Assembly (NCBI GenBank): GCA_947497145.1
Contig: CANMFQ010000007.1
Coordinates: forward strand, 1 to 64,000
Direction of reading: 5' to 3'
DNA from: an uncultured Flavobacteriaceae bacterium
GTDB lineage: Bacteria; Bacteroidota; Bacteroidia; Flavobacteriales; Flavobacteriaceae
Length of the DNA stretch: 64,000 nucleotides
Every line of letters starts with the position of its first letter. Position 1 is the first letter of the stretch. Positions 2,830 through 23,813 of the stretch are shown here, one piece after another. The translations under genes were made by a program, and so were the position numbers. The notes under the pieces are model-generated. The model made no database searches, had not been told where the DNA came from, and saw only the letters and a list, made by a program, of their open reading frames with translations.

Positions 2830-3347
2830 TGGGTAGCCGCCAATATTGTTAAGCATTGAACAAGTAATAAATCCATAGCAGTTAATGATAAAAAGTGATT
2901 TTAATATGTCGTCGATTTTTTGTTATCCGCAAACACCTTACTCTAAATACACGCGCTGCTATATTTTGTTGTTTGTAGGTCATATACCGACCTCATTTAT
3001 TGTTTTTTGGTTTCATTCTTAGTCAAGCCTACGCCTGAGTGTAGTTGATTGTAGTTGCTCTTTTTGAGTTAGACGCCATAAGTTTTAGAAAAGAACGCCT
3101 CATGATATAGATTGAACCTATATGTAAAAGTCGGAGGGTGAAACTACGGTAATTTACACCCATGTAGCAGTAAATATCTTTACAAGCAGCAGATTTAATA
3201 GCGTAGTATGCCTACTTATTGCGAGTTCAATTCCACCTATTAAAATTTCATCATCTTTTGTATTTCGTTTGTATTTAGCAAATTAGGGGCTACAATATGC
3301 AACAAACGATATGTAAAAACGTTCAATGTATTAGCAAAAAGTGTAAT
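2830..3347. other. Gene-free stretch
   Basis: I see no supported gene. There is a small hairpin near 2976-2993 (AGGTC...GACCT). A T-loop-like string near 3220-3238 is not embedded in a tRNA fold. Frames in this interval are short and unconvincing. Confidence 0.4.
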
Positions 3348-4082
3348 ATGAATTTATTTAAAAAACTTTTCGGAAGAGCAGAAGAAAAGGAAATTAAACA
3401 AGAAGAGCCGATAGTTCAAAACCAAAAGAAAGAGGAACAGGTAAATAATCAAAATGAAAGTCAAGAATCAATGGGAGAATCAGTCAAAGTACTTCCAAGG
3501 ATCAAAGTTGATTATTCACATGAAATTTATGTTGAAGACCAATCAAAATCATTTTCAGGAAATTCATTGCCCGAAGGAATAGAATTTCCTGAAAATCAAA
3601 AACCAATTGTAAAGCCGCTATATGAAGATTTGATTTTATGTTTTGCAGTTGACGAAGGGAATTGTTATAAAATTCTTCAAAAGAAAATTTTTGAAAAGAA
3701 TCCCAATCTTAATGAAGATATTCTCCAGGAAGTTAGTGTAAATGCCCTAATAGCTGAAATAGGTGAGGAAATACGTGTAAATGGAGATCCTGACGATATT
3801 ATGATGGTAACAGCAGGCGGTAACTTTGAGGCTGCAATAATTTTGATAGATAATTTTTGGGAACAAATGCATCAAATAATTAAAGGAAATGCTGTAATAG
3901 CTATACCCGCAAAAGACTTGCTTTTTATTTGTAAAGAAGATAATCAAGAGGCAATTCAAAAGTTAAAAGAAATTACAAAAGGGTATTTTGATAATCCTGA
4001 AACTCAAGGCCTTTTATCAAAAGCATTATATTTGAAAGAATCGGGGAATACAGCATTGAAAATTCTAGAAAAAACATTTTAA
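3348..4082 (+). CDS. DUF1444 (YtpQ/UPF0354-like) protein
   Basis: The protein is about 244 aa from the ATG at 3348. An upstream ATG at 3297 gives 17 extra, Cys-rich residues that do not look native. The start MNLFKKLFGRAEEKE leads into a charged, low-complexity linker of about 45 residues. The C-terminal 150 residues carry the DUF1444 pattern: an opening like KPLYEDLILCFAVDE, then MMVTAGGNFEAAIILID, then VIAIPAKDLLFICKEDN near the end. The family is cytosolic and functionally uncharacterised. The gene stands alone, with long non-coding DNA on both sides. Family assignment is from remembered motif order only. Confidence 0.7.
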   Translation: MNLFKKLFGRAEEKEIKQEEPIVQNQKKEEQVNNQNESQESMGESVKVLPRIKVDYSHEIYVEDQSKSFSGNSLPEGIEFPENQKPIVKPLYEDLILCFAVDEGNCYKILQKKIFEKNPNLNEDILQEVSVNALIAEIGEEIRVNGDPDDIMMVTAGGNFEAAIILIDNFWEQMHQIIKGNAVIAIPAKDLLFICKEDNQEAIQKLKEITKGYFDNPETQGLLSKALYLKESGNTALKILEKTF

Positions 4083-4203: not shown

Positions 4204-4452
4204 CTATAGTTCTCTTAAATAGTAAAAATCCCCATTAATGGGTATTGGCACTGTATAGCAATTAGTATAGTTTTAAACCGCATAAATAAACGGTTATTAA
4301 TGCTTTAAAAGCTATTTAAACCTGATCATTAAATTCAATCAAAAGCCACCAAAAATACTTTTTAGTACGTAATCATCGTATTATTTTTTGTAGTCAAAGT
4401 AAAAAACTGTCGTTAGGTGACTAAACCAATAGAACTATAAATAACCATTAAC
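4204..4452. other. Non-coding stretch downstream of the fucosidase gene
   Basis: AT-rich sequence between the remnant at 4099-4203 and the fucosidase terminator. I see no gene, repeat or RNA in it. Confidence 0.4.
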
Positions 4453-4528: not shown

Positions 4529-6634
4529 TTAATTTGTAGCTTGTGTAACAACGCCAACTTCAGCAAATGAAGCCCGGCTATCTTCACCGTCTACGGTAAC
4601 GGCTTTTAATTTTATATACCTTCCTTTGGTGGTATTGAAAGCTACTTTTTGTTGCAAACGACTATTAACTACATTAGAAAACTCGCCCTTAGCTACCGAT
4701 TTCCAGTTGGTATTATCAGTACTAACCGAAAAATCATAATTGGTAACAATACCAAAAGGATAGCGATTTTGAATTGGCCAATAGGTAAAGCCCTTTAAAT
4801 CATACATTGCACCTAAATCAATAACCACCTCTTGCGGTTTTGTTACCTTTTCAGCCGTAGCCCAAAAAGTATTTGGATTTTCATCTATTAAAAGGTTTGC
4901 TTTTTCAAGCTCGCCTGAGCTTACACGTATTACTTTCCAGTCTTTTTTTGCAATATCTATAGCAACACTTACGGCTTGCGTTTGCTGCTTGGTTTTGCTA
5001 TCATAACTAATTGCTTTAAGCGTAGCTGGCTTTGCTACAACAAACGGATTTGTGTATTTTGTTGCATTGCTTGAAGGTTCACTACCGTCTAATGTATAAT
5101 AGATAGCCACACTTTTATCAGGTACTGACATACTAACCGTACCTTCTTTTGTACGTGTTATAGTAGGTTCAACTAAGAAGTTTGGCGCTCTATACAGTCC
5201 TAAAGTTGCAATTGTTACCGGGCCTTTAGCGTCTAGTATATGTACTCGTATTTTTGTTGCTTTTACCGTGTCAAAGCGTAAAATACGTTTGTAGCCAATT
5301 GTTGTTTGCGTAGCAACAGTTTTCCATTTGCCATTAATCTCTGCATCAACAGCAAACTTTTTTACACGCTGCCCCAGAGGAATGTATTCTTGTAGCGCTA
5401 CACGATTAATTTCAGTAGGGGTATCAAAACTTACCGTAAGCGAGGCATCAATAACACCGTCATTGGTTGCCCAGTAAGTGTTCGTATCGCCGTCAATGGC
5501 ATTTTTAGCGGCATAGTCACTATTATTTCCACGAGTGTCAGAAGCGACTATTTGTTGTCCTACGGCCTCGTTTGTTTTAAAATCGGCGTCAAGTTGCTTT
5601 TTTAGAGCCATTAATTGCTTTACATCATTCTCATGCACTAGCCCTCTGTTGTCTACAGGGAGGTTTAGTAGCAGATTAGAATTTCGACCGACAGAACCGT
5701 AATAGATATCTACCAAATGCGGTAAGGTCTTAACTTGATGGTCTTCTCCCGGGTGGTAGTACCAACCTGGTCGAATAGAAGTGTCAGCCTCGGCAGGAAG
5801 CCAGTGAGTACCATCTTCATGACCTGAACGCAATTCTACATAACGTGGCCAACCCGGATAAATTTCATCCCTTCTCATAACACTCCAATTAGTTTCATTG
5901 GCAAAACCTTCTTCGTTACCTACCCACCGAATATCAGGCCCGGCATCACTGAAAATAACTGCATTAGGTTGTAGTTCACGTACAATGGCTGTTGCTTTAT
6001 CCCATTGGTAATAGGTTTTATTGTCTATTTTACGTGTTTCATTAGCACCGCCATAATAGCCAGATCCGCCATTAGCACCATCAAACCAAACTTCGAAAAT
6101 GGTTCCGTAATTGGTTAGCAATTCCCGTAGTTGCTCGTGAAAATTAGCTACATATTCTGGCTGGCCATAATTGCCCGCATTTCTATCCCACGGTGAAAGG
6201 TACACGCCAAATTTTAAACCATATTCAGCACAAGCTTCTGAGATTTCTTTAACCAAATCACCTTTTCCATCTCGCCAAGGAGAATTTTTAACAGAGTGTT
6301 CGGTAGTTTTTGTTGGCCACAAACAAAAGCCATCATGATGTTTGGCAGTAATAATAATACCTTTCATACCTGCTTCTTTAGCTACCCTTGCCCATTGGCG
6401 GGCATCTAACTCGGTAGGGTTAAATTGTGCGGGTTTTTCACCTCCCGTACCCCATTCCATATTAGTAAAGGTGTTCATGTTAAAATGAACAAAGGCATAA
6501 TATTCCATTTCATGCCAAGGTAAATGCCGTGCTTCGGGCACAGGTGTAATGGGAGTAGGGGGTGCTACTTGGGTGCTGCTACCACAGGAAACGAATAGGG
6601 TTGATAGGACTAAAAGGACAATAAATTTTTTCAC
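4529..6634 (-). CDS. Secreted GH29 alpha-L-fucosidase lipoprotein with chitobiase-like and F5/8-type C domains
   Basis: 701 aa. The N-terminus MKKFIVLLVLSTLFVSCGSS is a lipoprotein signal with the lipid-bearing Cys at 17. Residues about 35-360 form the GH29 barrel, with KHHDGFCLWPT at 98-109 and the nucleophile region VWFDGANGG with Asp185. A discoidin-like F5/8 type C module follows at about 370-485, then a chitobiase C-terminal-like module (YYTLDGSEPSSNATKY), then a second discoidin-like module to the end. The expected reaction is retaining hydrolysis of alpha-L-fucosides from algal or animal glycans at the cell surface; substrate linkage cannot be read from the sequence. No susC/susD pair, sulfatase or other glycosidase lies nearby, so this is a lone gene rather than part of a polysaccharide utilisation locus. 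Confidence 0.93.
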   Translation of the reverse strand: MKKFIVLLVLSTLFVSCGSSTQVAPPTPITPVPEARHLPWHEMEYYAFVHFNMNTFTNMEWGTGGEKPAQFNPTELDARQWARVAKEAGMKGIIITAKHHDGFCLWPTKTTEHSVKNSPWRDGKGDLVKEISEACAEYGLKFGVYLSPWDRNAGNYGQPEYVANFHEQLRELLTNYGTIFEVWFDGANGGSGYYGGANETRKIDNKTYYQWDKATAIVRELQPNAVIFSDAGPDIRWVGNEEGFANETNWSVMRRDEIYPGWPRYVELRSGHEDGTHWLPAEADTSIRPGWYYHPGEDHQVKTLPHLVDIYYGSVGRNSNLLLNLPVDNRGLVHENDVKQLMALKKQLDADFKTNEAVGQQIVASDTRGNNSDYAAKNAIDGDTNTYWATNDGVIDASLTVSFDTPTEINRVALQEYIPLGQRVKKFAVDAEINGKWKTVATQTTIGYKRILRFDTVKATKIRVHILDAKGPVTIATLGLYRAPNFLVEPTITRTKEGTVSMSVPDKSVAIYYTLDGSEPSSNATKYTNPFVVAKPATLKAISYDSKTKQQTQAVSVAIDIAKKDWKVIRVSSGELEKANLLIDENPNTFWATAEKVTKPQEVVIDLGAMYDLKGFTYWPIQNRYPFGIVTNYDFSVSTDNTNWKSVAKGEFSNVVNSRLQQKVAFNTTKGRYIKLKAVTVDGEDSRASFAEVGVVTQATN

Positions 6635-17502: not shown

Positions 17503-18888
17503 GTGATGTATACGATTGTTGACATAGAAACTACAGGTAATGGTATTCTAGGAAATAAGATTACGGAGATAGCAATCTTTAAATATGATGGAAATACTGT
17601 AATTGATGAATTTACATCATTGGTGAATCCTGAATGTGAAATTCCGTATTTCATTACTAGTTTAACGGGTATTGATAATCAAATGGTACGCAATGCACCT
17701 ACCTTTAGGGAAGTTGTAGATAAAATAGATGAAATTACCACCGATACCATTTTTGTAGCACATAGCGTAAATTTTGATTATAACGTTATTAAAAATGAAT
17801 TTACGAATCTGGGACGTGAGTTTGTTAGAAAGAAGCTTTGTACCGTGAGGCTTTCTAGAAAATTACTACCAGGGTATCATTCATATAGTCTGGGAAAATT
17901 ATGTTCAGCACTTGAAATTCCTTTAACTGATAGACATCGGGCAAGGGGAGATGCACATGCTACAGTACTGCTTTTTCAAAAACTTTTGGCAACTACTGGG
18001 GCACAATCGGTTTTTAAATCCTTTTTAAATGCACGTTCACAAGAAGCAACGCTACCACCTTCTTTACCTCGAAAAGCTTTTGAGCAACTGCCAGAATTAC
18101 CCGGTATTTATATTTTTAAAAATGCAAAAGGAGCCATTATTTATATCGGAAAAGCTATCAATATAAAGAAGCGTGTGTTAAGTCACTTTTATAATAAATC
18201 TACCAAAGAAGTAAGCATGTGCCAAGAAATTACAGCGATAGATTTTGAGCTTTCAGGCAGTGAACTAGTGGCACTACTTATGGAGTCTGATGCCATAAAA
18301 ACCCATTATCCACCCTATAACAGGGCTCAAAAGAAAACGATTCAGCAATATGCTATTTTTTCTTATGAAGACAGAAATGGTATTATGCATTTGGCGCACA
18401 ATAAAGTGAAGGCAGCACCCAACCCTTTAAAAATGTATTACAGTATTACAGCCTGCAGAGAAGCAATAGAAGAGTTGTGTAAGGCTTTTAAATTATGCCC
18501 TAAATATTGTCATTTACAAGAAGGCGTAGCACATTGCTCGCATCATAGTATCGGAATATGTGCAGGCATTTGTACTGGTGCCGAAACAACCAGTAGTTAC
18601 AATGCCAAAGTTACTCAAGCAATAAAAAGTTTACAGACAGAAAACGATAGTTTTGTATTTCAGGAAAAGGGTAGAGTTGTGGAAGAAACAGCGTTTATTT
18701 GGGTTGAAGATGGCAGATATGCAGGTTATGGTTTTGTTCCAGAAGAAGAAACAATACACTCGTATAAAGATTTGGATGCTTTTTTGATTCGCAAAAAAAA
18801 TACCCACGAAAGCCAACGTATTGTACAGTCATATTTGGCTAAACACCCGTACAAAGAAAAATTTCCAATTACCGAGGCTATCCTATAA
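17503..18888 (+). CDS. DEDDh 3'-5' exonuclease fused to a GIY-YIG (UvrC/Cho-like) nuclease
   Basis: 461 aa with two nuclease domains. Residues 1-165 are a DnaQ-like exonuclease with all five DEDDh residues: Asp7 and Glu9 in VDIETTG, Asp92 in FDYN, His145 and Asp150 in HRARGD. Residues about 195-275 are a GIY-YIG domain: GIYIF (201), YIG (214), Arg224 and Glu261. The remainder contains several Cys (LCPKYCHLQ...HCSHHSIGICAGICTG), as in the UvrC N-terminal half. The UvrC C-terminal endonuclease and helix-hairpin-helix parts are absent, so it is Cho-like. A DNA-repair role is expected. The start could be either ATG of the ATGATG pair; the gene is monocistronic. Confidence 0.88.
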   Translation: MMYTIVDIETTGNGILGNKITEIAIFKYDGNTVIDEFTSLVNPECEIPYFITSLTGIDNQMVRNAPTFREVVDKIDEITTDTIFVAHSVNFDYNVIKNEFTNLGREFVRKKLCTVRLSRKLLPGYHSYSLGKLCSALEIPLTDRHRARGDAHATVLLFQKLLATTGAQSVFKSFLNARSQEATLPPSLPRKAFEQLPELPGIYIFKNAKGAIIYIGKAINIKKRVLSHFYNKSTKEVSMCQEITAIDFELSGSELVALLMESDAIKTHYPPYNRAQKKTIQQYAIFSYEDRNGIMHLAHNKVKAAPNPLKMYYSITACREAIEELCKAFKLCPKYCHLQEGVAHCSHHSIGICAGICTGAETTSSYNAKVTQAIKSLQTENDSFVFQEKGRVVEETAFIWVEDGRYAGYGFVPEEETIHSYKDLDAFLIRKKNTHESQRIVQSYLAKHPYKEKFPITEAIL

Positions 18889-18986: not shown

Positions 18987-19472
18987 TTATTTAAAAACCA
19001 TCACATTGGTATCACTATTTTCAGGGTCACCTAAATAAATCAATAGCTCATTATTTTTAATTTCGAAATAGGTAGCATTTGTACCTAAGTTCGTTAAAAA
19101 ATTGTGTTCTATCGCATTTTCTTCATCACTCCCACCAATAAGTGTTGAAGCAAGCTGATCAGTTTCAATAATTAAACGAGCACTGTTATCTATTTTAAAT
19201 TTTCCAAAATATCTGTTCAAAAGATTATTTCCATTAAAGTTGATAAAATTCTCATTTAAACTATCAAAATTTAGCGTTATGCTATCTTCATAAGCGCTAT
19301 CAACTGGAGTTTTAGTGTAATTGTTAAATGTCCAATTGGTATTATTTAAAGTAGTTAATGAAGCAGCTGTAAGTCTTGTTGAATTTTCAACAGGGGTTTC
19401 GTCGTTGTCTTTAGAACAAGAAGTTAGTTGAAATGCAGCTATGATGGTTAAAACTAAAATTACTTTTTTCAT
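18987..19472 (-). CDS. META/HslJ-like lipoprotein, copy A
   Basis: 161 aa. A lipoprotein signal ends at SC (Cys19). The mature region starts with SLTTLNNTNWTFNNYT, a META/HslJ-type opening, and ends in a beta-rich segment (FEIKNNELLIYLGDPENSD). It is a near-twin of the product of 19704-20189; most changes fall in residues 80-140. Probably a periplasmic or outer-membrane-anchored small beta protein; function unknown. Confidence 0.75.
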   Translation of the reverse strand: MKKVILVLTIIAAFQLTSCSKDNDETPVENSTRLTAASLTTLNNTNWTFNNYTKTPVDSAYEDSITLNFDSLNENFINFNGNNLLNRYFGKFKIDNSARLIIETDQLASTLIGGSDEENAIEHNFLTNLGTNATYFEIKNNELLIYLGDPENSDTNVMVFK

Positions 19473-19703: not shown

Positions 19704-20189
19704 TTATTTAAAAACCATCACATTGGTATCACTATTCTCAGGGTCACCTAAATAAATTAATAATTCATTGTTTTTAATTTCAAAGAAGGTAGCACTTGTT
19801 GTTAAGTTATTTAAATAGGTGTTTTCTACAGCATTTTCTTCATCGGTCTCACCAACTAGTGTTGAAGCAAGTTCATTCGTTTCAATAATTAAGCCTGCAC
19901 TTTCATCCACTTTAAATTTTCCTGAGTATTGATTAACAATGTTATTTCCAGCAAACGTGATAAAAGTTTCGTTTAAAGTGTCAAAATTTAGTGTTATTCT
20001 ATCTTCATAAGCACTATCAACAGGAGTTTTAGTGTAATTGTTAAATGTCCAGTTGGTATTATTTAAGGTAGTTAATGAAGCAGCCGTAAGTCTTGTTGAA
20101 TTTGGAGCAGTAGTCTCCTCGTTGTCTTTGTCACAAGAAATTAGTTGGAATGCAGCTAAGATGGTTAAAACTAAAATTACTTTTTTCAT
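19704..20189 (-). CDS. META/HslJ-like lipoprotein, copy B
   Basis: 161 aa, same length and signal peptide as copy A (MKKVILVLTILAAFQLISC). Identical blocks include TRLTAASLTTLNNTNWTF and the last 20 residues. The upstream regions of both copies also match (for example GATTATTGTAATAGG before each gene), showing a whole-gene tandem duplication of about 0.72 kb. Substitutions lie mostly in the central strand region, consistent with diverging copies rather than a recent assembly artefact. Confidence 0.75.
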   Translation of the reverse strand: MKKVILVLTILAAFQLISCDKDNEETTAPNSTRLTAASLTTLNNTNWTFNNYTKTPVDSAYEDRITLNFDTLNETFITFAGNNIVNQYSGKFKVDESAGLIIETNELASTLVGETDEENAVENTYLNNLTTSATFFEIKNNELLIYLGDPENSDTNVMVFK

Positions 20190-20483: not shown

Positions 20484-20680
20484 TTATGAAAGAGAAATGA
20501 AAAACACCTTTTGTAAATGGTATTGTATTTAAAATCAATATTTTGCATGGTGGTATACATGTTTTTTTATAAATTTAAGAGAACAATATAGCAGTGCCGA
20601 AAAATACCCTTTTATGGGGGTTTTTATTCCCATTAAAACAGTGTACATTCATCATATAATAACAACTAAAAACCATTAAG

Positions 20681-21343
20681 ATGACCGATCATCATTCGCT
20701 TGAACAAATGGATATGTTTACTTCTGTCTTTATTTCAGAGAAAAATTTTTCCAAAGGAACTGGATTAGTACCCTATCAATTTTTATACGCATCACAACTT
20801 TATCAAACCATTTTTGCCGTGTATGGAACATTTAATTTTGAAAAATGTTCCAGTAAGGATAAAATATGTTTAAAAGACGTAACCCTGAGACTGGTAAATT
20901 ACAAGGGACCAATAAATCTTGGTCTTACAGATTTAGAATGTTTAAACTATTATGATAATAGCCAAGGACATAATATTTATTTCGGAGTACAAGCTTGTTC
21001 TAAAAAACTGCAAAAAACCGTAACATGCGAAGAGAAAATTGAAATTGTACAAGGAGAACCAACAAGAGTTACCTTTAATAGAATTTTAATACCCATGGAT
21101 GGTAAACTATTTGATCCAAAAAATAGACCAACTCCTATTCCTTTAAAGGAGGAGCAAGAATATTTTGATGAAGAATTTCATTTTAGAGATAACCCCAACC
21201 TTGGTAATAGACCATTAATGCCAGGTATGTATGGTTATCAAAATTTTGGTGCGAAGTGTTATAAGGAGGAAAAAGGTATGGAAAAATTGTTTATACCATC
21301 CCCTAGATGCCACCAAGGGTTTGTAAATATGTTTTATATATGA
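20681..21343 (+). CDS. Unknown 220-aa protein translationally coupled to a histidine kinase
   Basis: I do not recognise this family. There is no signal peptide or membrane helix. The sequence is rich in aromatic residues and has nine cysteines, some in pairs (CSSKDKIC, CSKKLQKTVTC), and a beta-rich middle (KICLKDVTLRLVNYKGPINL). The C-terminal half is polar and Pro-rich (KNRPTPIPLKEEQEYFDEEF, then NLGNRPLMPGMYGYQNFG). Its stop TGA overlaps the kinase start ATG (ATGA at 21340-21343), so the two proteins are made together. A signal-input or accessory role for the kinase is an inference from coupling. Confidence 0.75.
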   Translation: MTDHHSLEQMDMFTSVFISEKNFSKGTGLVPYQFLYASQLYQTIFAVYGTFNFEKCSSKDKICLKDVTLRLVNYKGPINLGLTDLECLNYYDNSQGHNIYFGVQACSKKLQKTVTCEEKIEIVQGEPTRVTFNRILIPMDGKLFDPKNRPTPIPLKEEQEYFDEEFHFRDNPNLGNRPLMPGMYGYQNFGAKCYKEEKGMEKLFIPSPRCHQGFVNMFYI

Positions 21344-23199
21344 AAATATGGGTTTTTACCTTTTTTTGCCTTCAGCCCTTTTTAATTTTTGGGTTTGATG
21401 ATAATGACTTAAGTACTTTTTTCTTTCATGTAAAGAGTTTGGAGTTTAGCAAAGCAAGAAGCACCCTAAATTCAATTACGGATAAGGATATTAAAAATGA
21501 ACTATCCCTTCATTTAGACATATTGTATTTTGAAGGTCAAAACCAGAACGATATTGTTCTAATTGACAAGGATGATGCCCAAAATAAAAAGACATACCGT
21601 TTACAGATTTTAAGGTTACTCAACCAAGGATACCATAGTTTGTTTAATGGGGAATTAGCTAAACTTGCTTATAAAAACTTTTACCAAGCGTATGAATTAG
21701 CAAATACCTATGAAGACCCTATACTACAAAAGACTTGTTTATTGGCTTTTTTAAAATATTATAATTTTGAAATTGCGCAAAACAGTAATGATTATCTGAA
21801 TTATTTACAACGTTTCAAGCAGTTGAAAACCGATCAGACTGATGCAATTTGGATTACCATTTATGAGATGATTTTTCACTCTAAATCCTTAACAAATCTT
21901 GATACTACCTATTATAAATTGGCAAAAAAACTAAATAAGTACGAACAAATTCTTTCTAGCGACAGTCCTTTATTAGGTCATGTGTATTATGAAAAGGCAA
22001 TGCAATACAATATTCTAAATAATAATTTAGAAGCTAAGCGATTTTATAAAAAGGCAATAGCTGTTTGTAAACCACACCCTTTTTTAAAAAAGATAGTCTT
22101 TTTTTCTTACATAAAATTAATGGTACTGGAGACTGATACAGCTGATTTTTTGAATGCGAGAGCGTTTTTAGACAGTGCTCAAAACTATATTAATATTGCT
22201 GACCCGCTAAGGTCTAGTTATTACGTAAACCTTTATAAATCACTTTTATTAAATGCCCAAAAGAAAAATGATAGTGCTTACGACTTACTCATGCAGGCCT
22301 ATAGACAAGAATTTCAGCTTGATTATAGGCGAAATACCTTGGAAGTTAATCGCTTAAACGTGGAGTTGGAAACTCAGCAGAAGGAAAGACAGATTCTTAA
22401 AGAGCAGCAGAGAGCTATTTCTAATCGAAACTGGTTTATTGCAGCTAGTGTTACCTTAATATTGGGAATAGGAATTGCTATTCTGTTATACAAAAACACT
22501 GCCAAAAAGCGAAAACTAGCAGAGCAGCAGCAGCAAATTGAGCACCAAAAAGTTGTAACATTATTGAAAGAACAAGAATTACATAGTATAGATGCCATGA
22601 TTGCTGGGCAAGAAAAGGAACGTATTAAAGTAGCCAATGAGTTGCATGATGACTTGGGGAGTTTAATGGCAACAGTGAAGCTACATTTTGATAATGTTAA
22701 GGTAGACCAAAAAGACCCCGCTTTAAAAAATGCCCAACGCCTGCTAGATGAAGCGTATCAAAAAATACGCACTATGGCGCATGCCAAAAATTCGGGTGTT
22801 ATGGCCAATCAAGGTTTAGTGCCCGCGGTTAAAAAAATGGCAAAAACAATTAGTGAAACCAATGCTTTGCAAATAACGGTTGAAGATTTTGGTTTGAATG
22901 AACGCCTAGAAAATGCACTAGAGCTTACTATTTTTAGAATCATTCAAGAATTGATAACCAATATTATTAAGCATGCCGAGGCAACAAAAGCGAGCATTCA
23001 ATTTACACAACATGAAGATAATTTAAACATCATAGTAGAAGATAACGGCAAAGGTTTTGATATTGCCGAAGTAAAACGAAAGGACAACGGCATGGGGTTG
23101 GGTAGCATAGAAAAACGTATCGAATTTTTGGAGGGTAGCTTTACCGTTGATAGCATTTTGCATAAAGGAACGTCTATTTTAATTGATATACCCGTATGA
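21340..23199 (+). CDS. Membrane-bound sensor histidine kinase (HisKA_3/NarX type) with TPR-like sensor region
   Basis: About 619 aa from the ATG at 21340, which gives a signal peptide (MKIWVFTFFCLQPFLIFGF). A helical, tetratricopeptide-like periplasmic region spans about 25-345. It is followed by a coiled coil, one membrane helix (WFIAASVTLILGIGIAILLY), a second coiled coil, and the dimerisation/phosphoacceptor region KVANELHDDLGSLMATVK with His436. The ATPase part has N-box IIQELITNIIKHAEA, DNGKGFD and GMGLGSI. This is the one-membrane-pass TPR kinase design common in Bacteroidota. The stop overlaps the response-regulator start (ATGA at 23196-23199), so the pair is cognate. Confidence 0.93.
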   Translation: MKIWVFTFFCLQPFLIFGFDDNDLSTFFFHVKSLEFSKARSTLNSITDKDIKNELSLHLDILYFEGQNQNDIVLIDKDDAQNKKTYRLQILRLLNQGYHSLFNGELAKLAYKNFYQAYELANTYEDPILQKTCLLAFLKYYNFEIAQNSNDYLNYLQRFKQLKTDQTDAIWITIYEMIFHSKSLTNLDTTYYKLAKKLNKYEQILSSDSPLLGHVYYEKAMQYNILNNNLEAKRFYKKAIAVCKPHPFLKKIVFFSYIKLMVLETDTADFLNARAFLDSAQNYINIADPLRSSYYVNLYKSLLLNAQKKNDSAYDLLMQAYRQEFQLDYRRNTLEVNRLNVELETQQKERQILKEQQRAISNRNWFIAASVTLILGIGIAILLYKNTAKKRKLAEQQQQIEHQKVVTLLKEQELHSIDAMIAGQEKERIKVANELHDDLGSLMATVKLHFDNVKVDQKDPALKNAQRLLDEAYQKIRTMAHAKNSGVMANQGLVPAVKKMAKTISETNALQITVEDFGLNERLENALELTIFRIIQELITNIIKHAEATKASIQFTQHEDNLNIIVEDNGKGFDIAEVKRKDNGMGLGSIEKRIEFLEGSFTVDSILHKGTSILIDIPV

Positions 23200-23813
23200 T
23201 AACTGTAGCCATAGCGGAAGACCATCAAGCTTTAATTGATGGTATTCAATCGTATTTAGCGTATGAAGATGATATTACCATTATTGGACATGCCAATGAT
23301 GGAGAAGCGCTGTTAGAATTGGTAAAAAGAAGGTCGCCAACAGTAGTGCTTTGCGATATTCGTATGCCCAAAGTTGACGGTATTGCGGCGGCTAAAGTTA
23401 TCCAAAAGGAATATCCAGCCACCAAAGTTATTGCTTTTACCATGTTTGATCAGGAACAGGCTATCAAACAAATGCTTGATGCAGGTGCGGTAGGGTATAT
23501 CTTAAAAAATTCGTCACTAAATATTGTTTTAGAAGCCATACGAGCCGTAGCCGAAGGAAAAACCTATTTTGATAATAAAATTCATTTACCTACAGCAACA
23601 AAAAATGGCTCTAAGAGTGTACTTTCTGCAAGAGAAAAGCAAATTTTAGGGTGTATAGCGAGGGGCAAAACATCACATGAAATTGCCAATGAACTGTTTA
23701 TAGGTAAGAGTACTGTTGATACACACCGTAAGAATATGATTCGCAAATTAGGTCTCAGTGGGGCAGGGGAGCTATTGCGGTATGCCGTAGAACGAAAATA
23801 TACATTTGAATAA
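23196..23813 (+). CDS. NarL/LuxR-type response regulator
   Basis: 205 aa. The receiver domain has the acidic pair in IAEDH, phosphoacceptor Asp54 in VVLCDIRMPK, a Thr/Ser switch in IAFTMF and Lys in GYILKNS. The C-terminal LuxR-type helix-turn-helix runs LSAREKQILGCIARGKTSHE, then ANELFIGKSTVDTHRKNMIR. It is coupled to the upstream kinase by a 4-bp overlap. Its targets are not in evidence. A strong hairpin at 23855-23894 closes the operon. Confidence 0.95.
   Translation: MITVAIAEDHQALIDGIQSYLAYEDDITIIGHANDGEALLELVKRRSPTVVLCDIRMPKVDGIAAAKVIQKEYPATKVIAFTMFDQEQAIKQMLDAGAVGYILKNSSLNIVLEAIRAVAEGKTYFDNKIHLPTATKNGSKSVLSAREKQILGCIARGKTSHEIANELFIGKSTVDTHRKNMIRKLGLSGAGELLRYAVERKYTFE

Follow-up and report, generated by a model that had tools for sequence, protein, structure and literature searches.

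A new family of small proteins encoded beside, and diverging with, the TPR-like sensor of a NarL-type two-component system in Flavobacteriaceae

The X-HK-RR operon

We analysed a 64,000-nt stretch of DNA from an uncultured Flavobacteriaceae bacterium (NCBI GenBank assembly GCA_947497145.1, contig CANMFQ010000007.1, positions 1 to 64,000 of the forward strand; hereafter the window), in which the gene of a 220-aa protein, here called X, stands directly before the genes of a sensor histidine kinase (HK) and a response regulator (RR). The features of this operon are as follows.

20602..20623, plus strand: NarL-type 7-2-7-like palindrome, predicted RR operator in a diverged copy (AAATACCCTTTTATGGGGGTTT)
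20681..21343, plus strand: X, leaderless protein of a new family, predicted beta-sandwich, 220 aa
20897..20899, plus strand: Asn73 of X, identical in 35/35 rows of alignment A3 and at least 90% conserved in alignment A4
21308..21310, plus strand: Cys210 of X, identical in 35/35 rows of A3 and 30/30 rows of the more diverse A4
21340..23199, plus strand: sensor HK, 619 aa from the overlapping ATG
21397..22329, plus strand: predicted periplasmic tetratricopeptide repeat (TPR)-like sensor, alpha-solenoid, about residues 20-330 of the HK (fold from a structural model, location from hydropathy)
22432..22497, plus strand: transmembrane segment preceding the kinase core (hydropathy)
22618..23193, plus strand: HisKA_3 and HATPase_c kinase core, HK residues 427-618 (Pfam)
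23196..23813, plus strand: NarL/LuxR-type RR, 205 aa, with REC at residues 4-115 and GerE at residues 141-197

At its core the operon codes for a two-component system of the usual NarL type: HisKA_3 and HATPase_c in the HK and REC and GerE in the RR all exceed their Pfam cut-offs (HisKA_3 narrowly, 24.9 against 24), and neither protein reaches an NCBIfam equivalog cut-off. Upstream of X the window has no protease gene; a gap of 491 nt is followed by a lipoprotein-like gene on the opposite strand. A sequence-only reading of this DNA had reported three open reading frames joined by ATGA overlaps at both junctions (21340-21343 and 23196-23199), and both overlaps are present as described; its deduction of stoichiometric translation is not supported. 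Among the related units defined below, a gap of -4 at the HK/RR junction is the rule (83/94). At the junction between small gene and HK, an ATG stands in frame where the window has its ATGA, giving the 4-bp overlap, in just 2/94 units, the window being one of them, so the X/HK overlap is no conserved feature; such an overlap suggests coupling, not stoichiometry. An alternative HK start codon (ATG at 21307) would give a protein of 630 aa.

X cannot be extended at its N-terminus because two in-frame stops lie just 5' of its ATG, and hydropathy flagged neither a hydrophobic start nor a leader, so that the earlier description of a Cys- and Tyr-rich protein (7 Cys and 13 Tyr in 220 aa) with no export signal is borne out. 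X had no match in Pfam, NCBIfam, PADLOC profiles or PDB sequences, and other members of its family gave only scattered weak library matches. A contig scan with the single X sequence returned no match and an alignment query did match; within the genus, the single-sequence search gave weak matches only, in 3/13 other genomes. A four-sequence profile detected X in 32/396 same-family genomes (the window's genome counted), and an 18-sequence profile yielded 35 X loci in GTDB contigs, mostly in Flavobacteriaceae (Leeuwenhoekiella, Aquimarina, Maribacter, Dokdonia, Croceivirga and Hyunsoonleella) with others in Roseivirga and in a small number of Bacteroidetes bins resolved less finely. A phylum-wide draw, with X in 3/395 genomes, added no genome to those already found; the rows listed were all same-family, and the draw says little on families other than the window's own. 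By sequence comparison, X is a member of a new protein family. Its AlphaFold2 model (35 sequences, mean pLDDT 77.7, pTM 0.78) predicts a beta-sandwich with a low-confidence linker (residues 181-202) ahead of the last strand (213-219), and the invariant Cys210, about 10 residues from the C-terminus, lies directly before this strand.

Foldseek matched the X model to no solved fold at E ≤ 1e-3. No known fold was assigned, the best match (VIA, Z 4.0) being adaptin-ear/Ig-like and generic, and the low-Z generic matches (adaptin ear, MALT1 Ig3, arrestin, TRAF/MATH) were not used as evidence. A mobile or phage origin was rejected: tblastn with the window's X had no match in phages or plasmids, profile A2 hit no viral contig, and PHROGs gave weak single-member matches only (30 members).

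X and other small genes adjoin one type of kinase

The comparison set comprised 108 HK-bearing loci, which became 95 units once identical HK ends were removed. X is carried by 59/95 units, namely the window as query, 54 further units found by X searches alone, and four units from the HK search (L107, L114, L130 and L134); the X searches also returned two X loci that are not units, L041 and L066. With the query excluded, X adjoins this type of HK in 55/56 distinct X loci from these searches; the exception, L066, is a 72-aa X remnant without an HK, and in L041 the HK runs off the contig. The X-HK-RR gene order is far from chance. The earlier proposal that X is tied to the kinase-regulator pair is thereby supported, and its homologues are not found mostly away from kinases.

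The association was also approached from the kinase side. An HK match (E ≤ 1e-40) was present in 113/396 same-family genomes, and the 40 best-scoring HK loci from genomes without X in the profile scan were taken as the HK-search sample. A small same-strand gene (139-278 aa) lies 5' of the HK in 39/40 of these loci, at 60 nt or less in 34, at 63-128 nt in 4 and at 179 nt in L124, where it was picked by hand over a 52-aa ORF; L121 has no small gene 5' of the HK. By profile, 35/39 of these small genes are not X, and they fall into several families. Within the genus, X stands upstream of 7/7 close HKs (G007 being cut by a contig edge) and matches upstream of 0/14 more distant HKs; at one of these, L173, an unrelated ORF of 178 aa is similarly spaced.

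By eye, a linker and then a short G-x-I-[IVL] tail close many of the non-X small proteins (L108-L146); the tail is a possible analogue of the terminal Cys strand of X.

The kinase has a predicted TPR-like sensor that is probably periplasmic

The kinase had earlier been described as a TPR kinase; Pfam finds no TPR in the window's HK (E ≤ 1), and a structural model supports the assignment. The AlphaFold2 model of HK residues 1-405 (33 sequences, pLDDT 86.8) shows an alpha-solenoid followed by a long helix, and its best Foldseek matches in the PDB are the Rap and Tom71 TPR peptide receptors. The Rap structures matched with bound peptide (4i9c, E 3e-4; 8rte, E 3.2e-4) reached TM scores of about 0.5 and share the fold only. 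Hydropathy placed an N-terminal hydrophobic segment in 91/95 HKs (at 1.85 the window's HK narrowly misses the threshold of 2.0) and a transmembrane segment ahead of the core in 92/95. The TPR region has no such segment, and a periplasmic location of the sensor is therefore expected.

Among the small proteins, 17/94 were flagged for a leader, of which 14 were accepted and three (L054, L109 and L114) dropped by eye. The resulting 14/94 with a lipoprotein or signal-peptide-like start include the X homologues L007, L044, L047 and L134. A type VI secretion system was considered as a route by which leaderless X might be delivered into the periplasm of neighbouring cells and is rejected as a general route, though not for individual species: the VipB profile PF05943 matched in 0/36 unit-bearing genomes, with a control that was positive in E. 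coli only, so that Bacteroidota sheaths may be missed, and a second marker, TssO (PF17561), exceeded its cut-off in 5/36 genomes, the window's genome not among them, with a control positive in 0/14.

X and the sensor diverge together on a conserved core

Pairwise identities were compared in 56/59 X units, L068, L074 and L104 being dropped as incomplete. Mean identity was 0.23 in X and 0.22 in the TPR part; the kinase core (0.58) and the RR (0.63) were better conserved. X identity followed that of the TPR part (r = 0.75; partial r = 0.72 given core and RR; reached in 0/2000 Mantel permutations), with much lower values for the kinase core (r = 0.30) and the RR (r = 0.27). The window illustrates this pattern: its core is 81-84% identical to those of seven relatives, whose X proteins and TPR parts are just 19-32% identical to its own. 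A nearest-neighbour test extended the comparison to 79 units in four small-protein classes (15 unclassified or incomplete units omitted), in which the class agreed with that of the nearest neighbour in 78/79 cases by the TPR part and in 46/79 by the core. Since class b had included L123 on a 15-column match alone, the test was repeated with stricter classes omitting L123, and the agreement was 75/76 by the TPR part and 44/76 by the core (shuffled labels, mean 31.9, maximum 48). Because both identity and class track the TPR part, the small protein and the sensor have diverged jointly, as a unit, on a signalling core that is better conserved.

Protease genes precede some of the small genes

In 28/94 units the gene immediately 5' of the small gene codes for a protease, at 30 nt or less in 27 and at 135 nt in L104. 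By fold these are 7 subtilases, 2 caspases, 4 papain-like and 15 trypsin-like proteases. The subtilases and the caspase of L059 are clear in Pfam, and the caspase of L060 was assigned by PADLOC, whose single caspase or subtilase models match three of the proteases. L061 alone among the papain-like proteases passes its Pfam cut-off, the others combining sub-cut-off matches with Cys and His motifs. In the trypsin-like group L117, L123, L129 and L143 pass the cut-off, L113, L128 and L141 were placed by local profile and L109 by GDSG alone, and all but the first four are sub-cut-off. GDSG is present in 15/15 trypsin-like proteases, their His not being confirmed, and simple motifs recover the full subtilase triad in 4/7.

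The protease fold goes with the class of small protein, a tie reached in 0/5000 shuffles: subtilases occur exclusively with classic X (7/7), caspases and papain-like proteases exclusively with MHEN-type X (6/6), and trypsin-like proteases mainly with another small family (13/15). Proteases accompany 0/14 leader-bearing and 28/80 leaderless small proteins (Fisher P = 0.009); when all 17 flagged small proteins are counted as leader-bearing, one of them (L109) has a protease. Further proteases lie elsewhere around the units, with caspases divergent from the unit in L053, L087 (with EAD11) and L090 (by similarity of its start), caspases after the RR in L079 and L136, and a papain-like protease two genes upstream in L065. 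The EAD11 caspase of L087 (4361-5572, in a Bacteroidia metagenome-assembled genome) is divergent from the X operon and lies beside a 1091-aa gene with no Pfam match; the start of the caspase in L090 (Aquimarina sp. Aq78) resembles it.

A conserved palindrome lies before the operon

The region upstream of the first operon gene (the protease gene where present) was scanned for an operator in 93 units, L068 being dropped at a contig edge. TACCC-N5-7-GGGTA with at most one mismatch was found 5' of the operon in 57/93 units, 25 of the sites being exact; 20 first-order Markov sets contained 0 exact sites and averaged 1.75 at this tolerance. Of 72 sites carrying no more than two mismatches, 69 have a spacer of 6. 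Sites lie a median of 76 nt from the start codon, and 0/14 control HKs have such a palindrome within 400 nt. In the window, the TACCC half begins 76 nt ahead of the X start codon, the family distance, and the site differs from the family consensus at 3/18 specified positions and at 2/10 positions of the TACCC-N6-GGGTA core. An engineered NarL 7-2-7 site (TACCCCTAAAGGGGTA; PMC4549865) has the same TACCC/GGGTA palindrome form. The position and symmetry of the palindrome and the class of the RR suggest that the RR binds it.

The statement of the sequence-only reading that no target gene is adjacent stands for the window beyond the operon, where the best match after the RR has 2 mismatches, and fails for the relatives: in 44/91 units the 400 nt that follow the RR contain a site with no more than one mismatch, against a background of 92/832 upstream of other locus genes. 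Across the loci, 62 non-operon genes have a site 40-100 nt 5' of their start, and six of them head trypsin-type operons. A hydrophobic N-terminus is found in 44/59 site-preceded genes and in 237/543 other genes (complete ORFs), and the products identified include DUF5723, PD40 and type IX secretion system (T9SS)-tail proteins and a caspase (L136). A global regulon in the window's genome was rejected, with 2 exact sites against 7 for the control pattern; the extended pattern with at most 3 mismatches gave 19+15 sites there against 7+10 for the control.

Several single sites were noted alongside these counts. Elsewhere in the window's genome (contig C32), L199:118-1443 codes for a 441-aa leader-bearing MACPF-domain protein (Pfam, 22.9 bits against a cut-off of 21.5) with an end that looks tail-collar-like by eye; an exact TACCC-N6-GGGTA lies at C32:1656-1677, at the same distance from the gene start as in X, and the gene was not found in 13 other genomes of the genus. 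As an RR target it is a lead only. A second operator-like palindrome in the window (4226-4247, 2/18 mismatches) lies between the convergent genes 3297-4082 and 4529-6634, the latter fucosidase-like by eye, with no start codon within 400 nt. Five units have, 3' of the RR, a gene for a 123-126-aa protein ending in an RR-like helix-turn-helix stretch, and an operator-like site precedes the start of this gene by about 50 nt:

L062:10313-10690, RR-like-helix-turn-helix protein
L065:3414-3794, RR-like-helix-turn-helix protein
L067:9876-10247, RR-like-helix-turn-helix protein
L104:9139-9519, RR-like-helix-turn-helix protein
L140:1196-1576, RR-like-helix-turn-helix protein

Proposed function and alternatives

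Gene order, joint divergence, conservation of the site and co-occurrence of proteases are observed directly, and we lean slightly towards reading them as the signs of an exchangeable recognition module, made up of X and the TPR sensor, that sits on a fixed kinase core with a NarL-type RR. X would be the cognate partner of the HK sensor domain, which, judging by hydropathy, would be anchored in the inner membrane and face the periplasm, and binding of X, or a change in X, would set kinase activity. The phosphorylated RR would then bind the 7-2-7 palindrome and adjust its own operon (in the window through the diverged site before X) and, in relatives, may also adjust neighbouring genes, which often code for exported proteins. 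Where a protease is encoded upstream, it may cut the linker before the C-terminal Cys-bearing strand and thereby switch the small protein. The separate steps differ in likelihood: direct contact between X and the TPR part appears evenly balanced, and cleavage of X-type proteins by the proteases has, in our estimate, a chance somewhat below even. Neither the upstream proteases of relatives nor the co-variation of X and TPR could have been revealed by the sequence-only reading.

Several observations weigh against this recognition-module reading. As many as 80/94 small proteins are leaderless while the TPR sensor looks periplasmic, which leaves their contact unexplained. X and the TPR-coding part are neighbours on the DNA, and a single recombination tract could move both with no contact between their products, so that co-inheritance can contribute to the joint divergence. 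The non-X small proteins could not be joined to X by profile (hhalign 8-14% for the main family; the best single match, L109, reached 72% over 55 columns). The 2 core mismatches of the window's operator are a level that random sequences reach in 13.7/93 cases on average, and exact palindromes are not enriched in the window's genome. The catalytic residues of the upstream proteases are just partly confirmed by simple motifs, and 66/94 units, the window included, have no protease directly upstream; therefore, proteolysis cannot be essential.

The leaderless majority can also be read as the sign of a cytosolic X working from the inner side, with the kinase core, the RR or the protease as its target, and with X and TPR co-inherited through adjacency only, as neighbouring genes can be transferred jointly; 26/28 proteases also fall below the hydropathy threshold (the exceptions are L055 and L116). 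However, X tracks neither the kinase core nor the RR, as its low correlations with both show, and the signal-peptide-like X homologues L007, L044 and L047 occupy the same position, and we regard this alternative as somewhat unlikely. Distinctly less likely is that X, with the protease where present, is a toxin-like or immune-like effector under two-component control while the HK senses another cue such as envelope damage. The EAD11 caspase beside X in L087 and the caspases beside or after other units would fit such a role, and so would the use of the same kinds of peptidase in conflict systems (PMC7159879); but the locking of the small-protein class to the sensor domain would be unexpected for a plain output gene, and most units have no protease directly upstream. 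That X is an unrelated gene merely sharing the operon is very improbable: only the absence of a known domain speaks for it, and its place beside the same HK type in 55/56 X-search loci from many genera counts strongly against it.

An unlikely further reading is a proteolysis-gated protein signal, in which interchangeable proteases (subtilisin, caspase, papain-like or trypsin-like) would each cut a dedicated small protein in the linker ahead of its C-terminal strand, and the released tail or activated protein would be read by the Rap-like TPR domain of the membrane kinase. If true, this would be a Gram-negative counterpart of Rap/Phr in which signal, protease and receptor diversify as a self-specific set, and the sensing of kin or of danger once cells have lysed would account for the access of leaderless proteins to a periplasmic sensor.

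Relation to known systems

The domain pairs of the core, HisKA_3 and HATPase_c in the kinase and REC and GerE in the regulator, are likewise those of the NarL/FixJ-type systems NarX-NarL and UhpB-UhpA, and the 7-2-7 inverted heptamer is a further sequence feature held in common at the family level, diverged in the window copy (2 core mismatches). Unlike those systems, the unit described here has a TPR-like sensor, a swappable small gene in front and an optional protease gene. Rap/Phr and other RRNPP proteins are TPR peptide receptors of Firmicutes with an adjacent gene for a short exported pro-peptide. The alpha-solenoid peptide-receptor fold and the adjacent small gene are common to both, but here a membrane kinase contains the TPR, and in place of a short exported pro-peptide there is X, of 220 aa, leaderless and predicted to fold as a beta-sandwich; the window's sensor thus resembles the Rap/RRNPP group and is not a member of it. 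In CpxP-type two-component systems a third protein tunes the sensor, whereas here the accessory protein has diverged in step with the sensor domain and the core is conserved.

The conflict systems of Kaur et al. 2020 have interchangeable caspase, trypsin and subtilisin peptidases, and the accessible part of that paper (PMC7159879) names no histidine kinase domains among vWA-associated effectors. Exchangeable peptidases also occur in the relatives here (28/94 units), not in the window, and the EAD11 caspase beside X in L087 is another likeness; the core here, in contrast, is an HK-RR pair, and the window operon has no MoxR-vWA, STAND or GTPase gene. PADLOC defence profiles (2023 library) did not match X or the HK and gave weak CARF3 matches only for the RR. 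A literature search covering few subscription journals found no description of a unit of small protein, TPR kinase and regulator with exchangeable proteases, and a link of caspase-like or other proteases to such a unit is not described in the accessible parts of PMC7159879 and PMC8195603. What was an orphan protein is thereby placed in a family that occupies a set position in a signalling system, and the partner protein co-varies with the sensor domain and, in units that have one, with the protease; should the protease step be true, bacterial caspase-like and other proteases would be linked to a two-component switch.

Neighbourhood of the units

Between X and an exonuclease-like gene, the window has two near-alike tandem 161-aa lipoprotein-like genes on the minus strand (18987-19472 and 19704-20189). 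The 461-aa exonuclease-like gene (by eye; 17503-18888) has close look-alikes near X in L038, L041 and L044, and is a possible syntenic anchor. Many units (L046, L048-L050, L052, L053, L057, L062, L063, L065, L067 and others) seemingly lie at one chromosomal place, flanked by genes whose products start with MKxKIxxVxxFHxxF and M[FI]SxGQ, and it seems as if the part 5' of a fixed HK-RR core were swapped there in situ.

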